Shown: positions 32,022 to 33,701 of the stretch, piece after piece | How the letters are laid out: every line of letters begins with the position of its first letter | How positions within the stretch are numbered: position 1 is the stretch's first letter | NCBI GenBank assembly: GCA_027622005.1 | Contig: JAQBZH010000025.1 | Location: forward strand, 1-34,683 | Length of the DNA stretch: 34,683 nucleotides | Source: Bacteroidota bacterium | Lineage (GTDB): Bacteria; Bacteroidota; Rhodothermia; Rhodothermales; UBA10348 | Direction of reading: 5' to 3' | Notes under the pieces: model-generated | The model's input: the letters and a program-made list of their open reading frames with translations, nothing else | The model's database searches: none | Told to the model about the DNA's origin: nothing | Position numbers and translations under genes: made by a program

Positions 32022-33083
32022 ATGAATCGACGCACGTTTACAAAACACGGCCTTTTAGCCACAGCAGGAGCCACCATCATGCCGCGCGCGCTACATATTA
32101 TTTCAAAAAACGCACCATCGAAGGAAATTATCGGTCACGGCGATTTTCAATATTCCGTCGACCGCGAATGGGGCAAGTTGAATCCGAGCTCGACACCTGT
32201 TAAGAACTGTCACGAAATGGTCCAGGACCGTTTTGGGCGACTCATCATGATCACAGATGAGACCAAGAACAATATTATTATCTACGACAAAAGTGGCAAG
32301 TTCTTGGGTAGTTGGGGAAATACGTTTCCGGATGGTCATGGACTCACCCTTTCGGATGAAGGCGATGCCGAGTATTTATGGATTTGTGACAACGGTTTCG
32401 GAGGAAATCCTCAGGTAGTAAAAACCACGTTGGAAGGGCGCGAAGTGATGCGGTTGCCATCGCCTAAAACCATTGGGGTTTATCCAGAAGCCGACACTTT
32501 TTATCCCACGGAAACGGCGGTAGCGTCTAACGGCGATATTTACGTAGCGGATGGGTACGGAAGTCAATGGATCTTACAGTATTCAAAAGAAGGCCAATTC
32601 ATTCGAAAATTCGGTGGTCGGGGGGACGGGGATTCGCAGTTTTCAACGGCACACGGGGTTTGCGTAGATAGCCGTGGCGCAGGACCCGACACGTTATTGG
32701 TCACGTCTAGAGGGCACAACGCCTTCAAGCGTTTTACGATGGACGGCGAGTACATCGAAACGCTGTTTTTACCGGGAGCTTTTGTTTGCCGAGCCGTTAT
32801 TGATGATGATATGCTTTATTCCGGAGCCTGTTGGTCGCGGTTAAGATACCTGAATCAAACACCCAATTCGGGTTTCGTGACCATTTTGGATTCCAAAGGG
32901 ATGGTGGTTTCGAATCCCGGTGGAACTGCGCCAGAGTATCGGGACGGCGTTCTACAGGTGATGGTTCAACAAGAGAAGGTCTTCCACCATTGCCACGATG
33001 TTTGTATTGACGAAGATAAAAACATCTATGTCTGCCAATGGAACGCTGAGCAATCGTATCCAATCCGGCTAGCTCGGATTTAA
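32022..33083 (+). CDS. Tat-exported NHL-repeat six-bladed beta-propeller protein
   Basis: From the ATG at 32022 the protein (353 aa) opens with a twin-arginine signal MNRRTFTKHGLLATAGATIM; the frame upstream to 31935 adds 29 polar residues that would bury the signal, so the later start is preferred. The remainder is a beta-propeller with NHL-type repeats: VQDRFGRLIMITDETKNNIIIYDKSG, VASNGDIYVADGYGSQWILQYSKEG, FSTAHGVCVDSRG, and HDVCIDEDKNIYVCQWN. It lacks obvious enzymatic residues, although some NHL proteins have lyase activity. The gene is divergent from the DUF1549/DUF1553 operon and so may supply a binding or scaffolding partner for it. Confidence 0.88.
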   Translation: MNRRTFTKHGLLATAGATIMPRALHIISKNAPSKEIIGHGDFQYSVDREWGKLNPSSTPVKNCHEMVQDRFGRLIMITDETKNNIIIYDKSGKFLGSWGNTFPDGHGLTLSDEGDAEYLWICDNGFGGNPQVVKTTLEGREVMRLPSPKTIGVYPEADTFYPTETAVASNGDIYVADGYGSQWILQYSKEGQFIRKFGGRGDGDSQFSTAHGVCVDSRGAGPDTLLVTSRGHNAFKRFTMDGEYIETLFLPGAFVCRAVIDDDMLYSGACWSRLRYLNQTPNSGFVTILDSKGMVVSNPGGTAPEYRDGVLQVMVQQEKVFHHCHDVCIDEDKNIYVCQWNAEQSYPIRLARI

Positions 33084-33176
33084 CGCCGATGGATGTCTGT
33101 TGTGGTATGACCCCCAAAAGCATTCGCCCCTTTCTCGACTACTTATTCCTCAGGGAGTTGCTTTTTCGAATTGGTA

Positions 33177-33212
33177 CACCTACATTAGTTGTATATACTA
33201 ATAATGTAGGTG
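33177..33212. promoter_or_regulatory. 36-bp near-perfect palindrome over the marR start, putative operator
   Basis: Arms CACCTACATTA (33177-33187) and TAATGTAGGTG (33202-33212) are perfectly complementary over 11 bp. Their centre coincides with a perfect 8-bp palindrome GTATATAC (33191-33198), so 32 of 36 bases are symmetric, with mismatched pairs only at 33188/33201 and 33190/33199. The right arm includes the GTG start codon of marR. A repressor bound here would block transcription, and the folded mRNA would hide the start. The core TTGTATATAC recurs before the next gene. Confidence 0.75.
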
Positions 33213-33668
33213 GAGCGCATTAAACTAGAGCAGGAAATACAGCAACACACGTTTAGCGACGAGTTCCTAAAGTCCATCTTGAACGTGTTGGTTACTGCGG
33301 ATAAAATTTCGCACGATACCAACGCGGCCTTGAAACCGTTTGGAATTTCGAAAGAGCAGTACAATGTCCTTCGCATCTTAAAGGGGCAGTTCCCCACCCC
33401 GGCGGCGCTGCAATTAATTTCAGAAAGGATGATTAGTAAATCCTCGAATGCCACCCGTTTAGTTGAAAAACTGCGTCAAAAGGGATTGGTTAAGAGGTCG
33501 GAGTGTTCTTCTGACCGGCGTCAGGTAGACATCCTATTAACGGATAAGGGCCTAACTTTTCTCGAAGAAGTAAACCCCCTCGTGAAGGCCAGTAGTGCCC
33601 AAATGCGCAACTTAACTAAACAGGAATCCACTGAGTTAAACCGGCTTTTAGAAAAGATGCGTGGCTAA
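33210..33668 (+). CDS. MarR-family transcriptional regulator
   Basis: A 152-aa winged-helix regulator. The MarR fold spans the whole protein: dimerisation helices at both ends, the recognition region around LQLISERMISKSSNATRLVEKLRQKGLV (residues 69-96) and the wing SECSSDRRQVDILLTDKG (99-116) with the conserved DRR. It resembles regulators of Bacteroidota that begin with a charged helix like ERIKLEQEIQQHTFSDEF, so the GTG at 33210 is accepted as start; no ATG is available before the conserved part. A large palindrome covers the start codon, implying autorepression, and the same core precedes the NmrA-like gene 84 bp downstream. The inducer is unknown; such pairs commonly respond to oxidants, quinones or phenolics. 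Confidence 0.93.
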   Translation: MERIKLEQEIQQHTFSDEFLKSILNVLVTADKISHDTNAALKPFGISKEQYNVLRILKGQFPTPAALQLISERMISKSSNATRLVEKLRQKGLVKRSECSSDRRQVDILLTDKGLTFLEEVNPLVKASSAQMRNLTKQESTELNRLLEKMRG

Positions 33669-33689: not shown

Positions 33690-33701
33690 TTGTATATACA
33701 A
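33690..33701. promoter_or_regulatory. Second copy of the putative MarR operator core
   Basis: TTGTATATACAA is a perfect 12-bp palindrome located 51 bp before the NmrA-like gene start. The first ten bases are identical to 33189-33198 in the operator before marR, and bases on either side are partly symmetric too. It supports control of the downstream gene by the same regulator. Confidence 0.7.

Follow-up and report, generated by a model that had tools for sequence, protein, structure and literature searches.

The window, a stretch of 34,683 nucleotides, is one entire contig of a 2.8-Mb Bacteroidota genome. It includes marR, a gene for a MarR-family regulator, which is followed on the same strand by a gene for an NmrA-like NAD(P)-binding protein (Table 1). 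The marR product belongs to the MarR family by its PF01047 match, with a score of 37.8 bits where the cut-off is 24.6. The reading frame of marR has no earlier start because a TAG at 33207 closes it upstream. A 36-bp palindrome, consisting of an inner core and two outer arms, covers the region directly before marR and includes its start codon.

Table 1. Features of the marR-nmrA locus, with positions in the window
Feature	Position	Strand	Remarks
TTGC, putative -33 promoter element of marR	33158..33161	+	Same in all four orthologous promoters, with constant spacing to TACATTAG/A; predicted
Left outer arm, CACCTACATTA	33177..33187	.	Pairing with the right arm not conserved
TACATTAG, putative -7 element (consensus TAnnTTTG)	33181..33188	+	Most of the left outer arm; TACATTA invariant in four species
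Operator core TTGTATATACTA of the MarR protein (putative)	33189..33200	+	11/12 match to TTGTATATACAA
Right outer arm, TAATGTAGGTG	33202..33212	.	Includes the GTG start codon, preceded by an ATG-TAG start-stop; sequence not conserved
marR, 152-aa MarR-family regulator, GTG start	33210..33668	+	PF01047, E=1.8e-9; TAG at 33207 closes the frame upstream
Second operator core TTGTATATACAA (putative), before the NmrA-like gene	33690..33701	+	The four orthologs all carry TTGTATATACAA
NmrA-like NAD(P)-binding protein, 287 aa	33752..34615	+	PF05368, E=1.8e-55

Positions 33177-33212 read CACCTACATTAGTTGTATATACTAATAATGTAGGTG, and 16 of the 18 base pairs are symmetric. As the first-pass annotation had described, the outer arms are perfect over 11 bp, the inner GTATATAC is likewise perfect, and the right arm holds the start codon of marR; this GTG, at 33210-33212, ends the arm. 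Its report of a repeated core ahead of the NmrA-like gene was also accurate: positions 33690-33701 carry TTGTATATACAA, 12 bp with perfect symmetry. The marR-side core is imperfect, with ACTA in place of ACAA as its right half. Symmetry of this degree is not expected by chance within the window: a single 36-bp stretch in it pairs at 14 or more of 18 positions, and in 200 dinucleotide shuffles of the window the mean number of such stretches was 0.145, none of them reaching 16. For a perfect 11-bp extension around a given core, p is ~2e-7 (mean pairing probability 0.248).

Conservation of the core was assessed at 80 Bacteroidota loci with marR relatives (L035-L114), counting matches of at least 10/12 to TTGTATATACAA. 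Such a core is found upstream of marR in 59 of the 80 relatives and downstream, before the next gene, in 41; both are present in 37. Control stretches gave 0/77 and 1/80, and shuffled upstream regions 2%. The symmetric bases that do not vary form the half-sites TTGT and ACAA. At these positions, 3-6 from the centre, symmetry holds in 94-99% of the sites upstream of marR and in 91-96% of those downstream. The four bases between the half-sites are more variable, and positions outside them are symmetric mostly in 20-66% of sites. The gene that follows marR differs by lineage (e.g., NmrA, DoxX, pirin, YceI, or DUF6069), and the operator is retained. A site that stays while its downstream partner is swapped is most likely tied to the regulator. 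This pattern of conservation makes the inner core, TTGTATATAC(T/A)A, very likely the operator of the adjacent MarR protein at both marR and nmrA. The earlier proposal of a MarR site before both genes is supported for the core and not for the outer arms, whose pairing is unconserved. An ortholog with 64% identity (genome G006) keeps GTATATAC before marR, but a TTGTN4ACAA site is absent both from that region and from the one ahead of nmrA.

The genome search that had been proposed for defining a regulon established none beyond the marR-nmrA pair. The one-mismatch matches to TTGTATATACAA elsewhere in the genome (C44:21274 and C49:29416) lie within coding frames and were rejected. The looser pattern TTGTANNTACWA occurs at three further places (C56:18268, C70:15828, and C83:135918), no more than in the reversed control; according to the lists of open reading frames, these fall in or near gaps between frames, and they were not counted as operators. 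A search of viral contigs and plasmids returned no relatives.

A promoter-like block abuts the core. The window and the orthologous loci L035, L036, and L037 share the gapless arrangement TTGC-N19-TACATTA(G/A)-TTGTATA, in which the spacer is variable. The TACATTAG element is placed exactly 20 nt after the TTG in all four orthologs, one of which has TACATTAA. This resembles the Bacteroidota promoter consensus TTTG / TAnnTTTG (PMC6847099). Among the relatives, 23 of 72 sites have a TAnnTTTG-like box in this register (offset -8 relative to the core), where 0.68 would be expected. Two promoter-operator layouts can be distinguished: the -7 box lies either just before the core (23 loci) or 22 nt past the core start (26 loci), and in the second layout the TTG of the core could itself be used as the -33 element. 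Either layout would let the repressor block polymerase. Stretches of ~570 kb, window included, stood in for the whole genome. Of the regions upstream of 233 of its genes, 17 have TAnnTTTG vs 15.0 expected, which is no enrichment, so it is local conservation that argues for the promoter. A clear -7 box was also sought for nmrA, and none was found. The left arm would be retained mainly as a promoter -7 box. With that box at -12 to -5, transcription is predicted to start at about 33193, inside the core, leaving a 17-nt leader. The left arm is therefore absent from the predicted mRNA, and the GTG could not be hidden by it.

The outer arms fare differently among the relatives. Of the 11 outer pairs, all are intact in the window, 6 in L035, 3 in L036, and 4 in L037; the mean for shuffled flanks is 3.4, and the wider family has a mild excess of outer symmetry (mean 4.6 pairs). 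The comparison with relatives that the first-pass annotation had called for shows the core kept and the outer symmetry broken in every ortholog examined, including the closest, L035, whose MarR protein is 93-95% identical. The left arm is conserved among the four orthologs, and the right arm is not. L035 has five broken outer pairs; the window pairs at all five, and at four of these the difference lies in the right arm. The gapless alignment of the right arms sets GTG-TCG-ATC in L035 against ATG-TAG-GTG in the window (33204-33212). The ATG aligns with the start codon used by L035 and is followed at once by a stop, which leaves the GTG as the place where translation has to begin in the window. 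A start-stop immediately 5' of the start codon could lower translation or couple it. By these comparisons the outer arms lie outside the conserved operator, with the 11-pair match limited to this one genome; recent mutation, or chance, probably produced their symmetry. Long extensions, with other sequences, also occur in a few other clades. At L083, 10 of 11 outer pairs match, and the downstream site of L086 is AACAATACTTGTATATACAAGTATTGTT, a perfect 28-bp palindrome. The core-like sites of L086 and L083 are positioned ~21-36 bases past the end of the marR match. These clade-specific extensions suggest that operator palindromes have been extended repeatedly.

The first-pass annotation proposed that the 36-bp element could be a two-layer device, holding two MarR dimers or adding an mRNA hairpin that masks the start. 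As weighed here, two dimers (or one with a longer footprint) would occupy the DNA and a transcript hairpin would hide the GTG. Neither layer has comparative support, and the reading is very improbable. The 16/18 symmetry speaks for it, as do the long extensions at L086 and L083 and the folding of RNA 33170-33225 at -16.9 kcal/mol (z -3.2). However, a 36-bp site for two dimers is at odds with outer arms that break down in every ortholog examined, and the nmrA site is without these arms altogether. The start-masking hairpin was rejected on comparative folding: it is missing in L035-L038, where no fold is significant (z -1.1 to +0.1), and the transcript predicted from 33193 also lacks it (z +0.9). 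That the outer arms are instead a young functional addition in this lineage, serving a second dimer or a start-masking hairpin on read-through from the gene that ends at 33083, is likewise given very little credence.

Two non-functional accounts concern the outer arms only. The arms may have arisen by a quasipalindrome template-switch at the core palindrome, which copied the left arm into the right during replication and replaced the old start region; such an event implies no function and is compatible with plain autorepression. Template-switching of this type is known in E. coli, where imperfect inverted repeats become more perfect (PMC7202029). It fits the conserved left and unconserved right arm, and would produce in one step the pairing in the window of all five outer positions mismatched in L035 (four through right-arm differences). 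It would also account for the p of ~2e-7 and for the new TAG that follows the former start codon. However, two inner mismatches persist, and decay of an ancestral palindrome in L035, the one close ortholog compared, fits equally well; the account is held at close to an even chance. Alternatively, the symmetry may have arisen by coincidence around an operator that is under selection, and have come to notice because of the large number of windows read. The lack of conservation of the arms fits coincidence, as does a first-stage reading that picks striking cases, although 11 perfect outer pairs would be expected at about 2e-7 per operator, which weighs against it. This possibility is entertained seriously, if somewhat short of even.

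For the conserved part of the element, a standard MarR autorepression site, with one copy at marR and one at nmrA, is considered highly probable. What the sequence comparison shows directly is that the core is conserved at marR and nmrA alike and that the outer pairing is not; protein binding, repression, promoter, and start site are predictions from sequence. A dimer of the MarR protein (33210-33668) would bind the palindrome through the half-sites of TTGT-N4-ACAA. At marR, the site (33189-33200) directly follows the promoter-like -7 box and would span the point where transcription is predicted to begin, so that bound repressor would block RNA polymerase. The copy at 33690-33701 would place the NmrA-like enzyme under the same repressor, and a ligand or redox signal would release both sites. 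Within this autorepression scheme, the left arm would be mainly the promoter -7 box, and the right arm would consist of the start codon and a short, unconserved leader, matching the left arm in this genome only. The locus offers a usable operator consensus, TTGT-N4-ACAA, for a group of Bacteroidota MarR proteins whose target gene has been swapped and whose operator has been kept. It is also an example of a striking palindrome made of a conserved operator and promoter box joined to an unconserved arm.

In the literature searched, there was no account of TTGT-N4-ACAA before Bacteroidota marR-nmrA, DoxX, pirin, or YceI loci. TreR is a GntR-family regulator. The TreR box of Bacillus licheniformis is the same 12-bp palindrome, TTGTATATACAA (PMC11356801); therefore, the sequence alone does not name the binding protein. 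In contrast to the TreR box, the site described here goes with another regulator family and other genes, and it travels with marR. The arrangement TTGC-N19-TACATTAG at marR, conserved in four species, resembles the Bacteroidota sigma-ABfr-type promoter (TTTG / TAnnTTTG), and Chitinophaga relatives have TACCTTTG at the same place. The marR box differs from that promoter type at one of six consensus bases, and the motif is not enriched across this genome. The closest general likeness is to the MarR autorepressors, which share with this locus the MarR fold (PF01047) and a palindrome at their own gene and at an adjacent target gene; an overlap of the site with the promoter or start, as in those systems, is predicted here.
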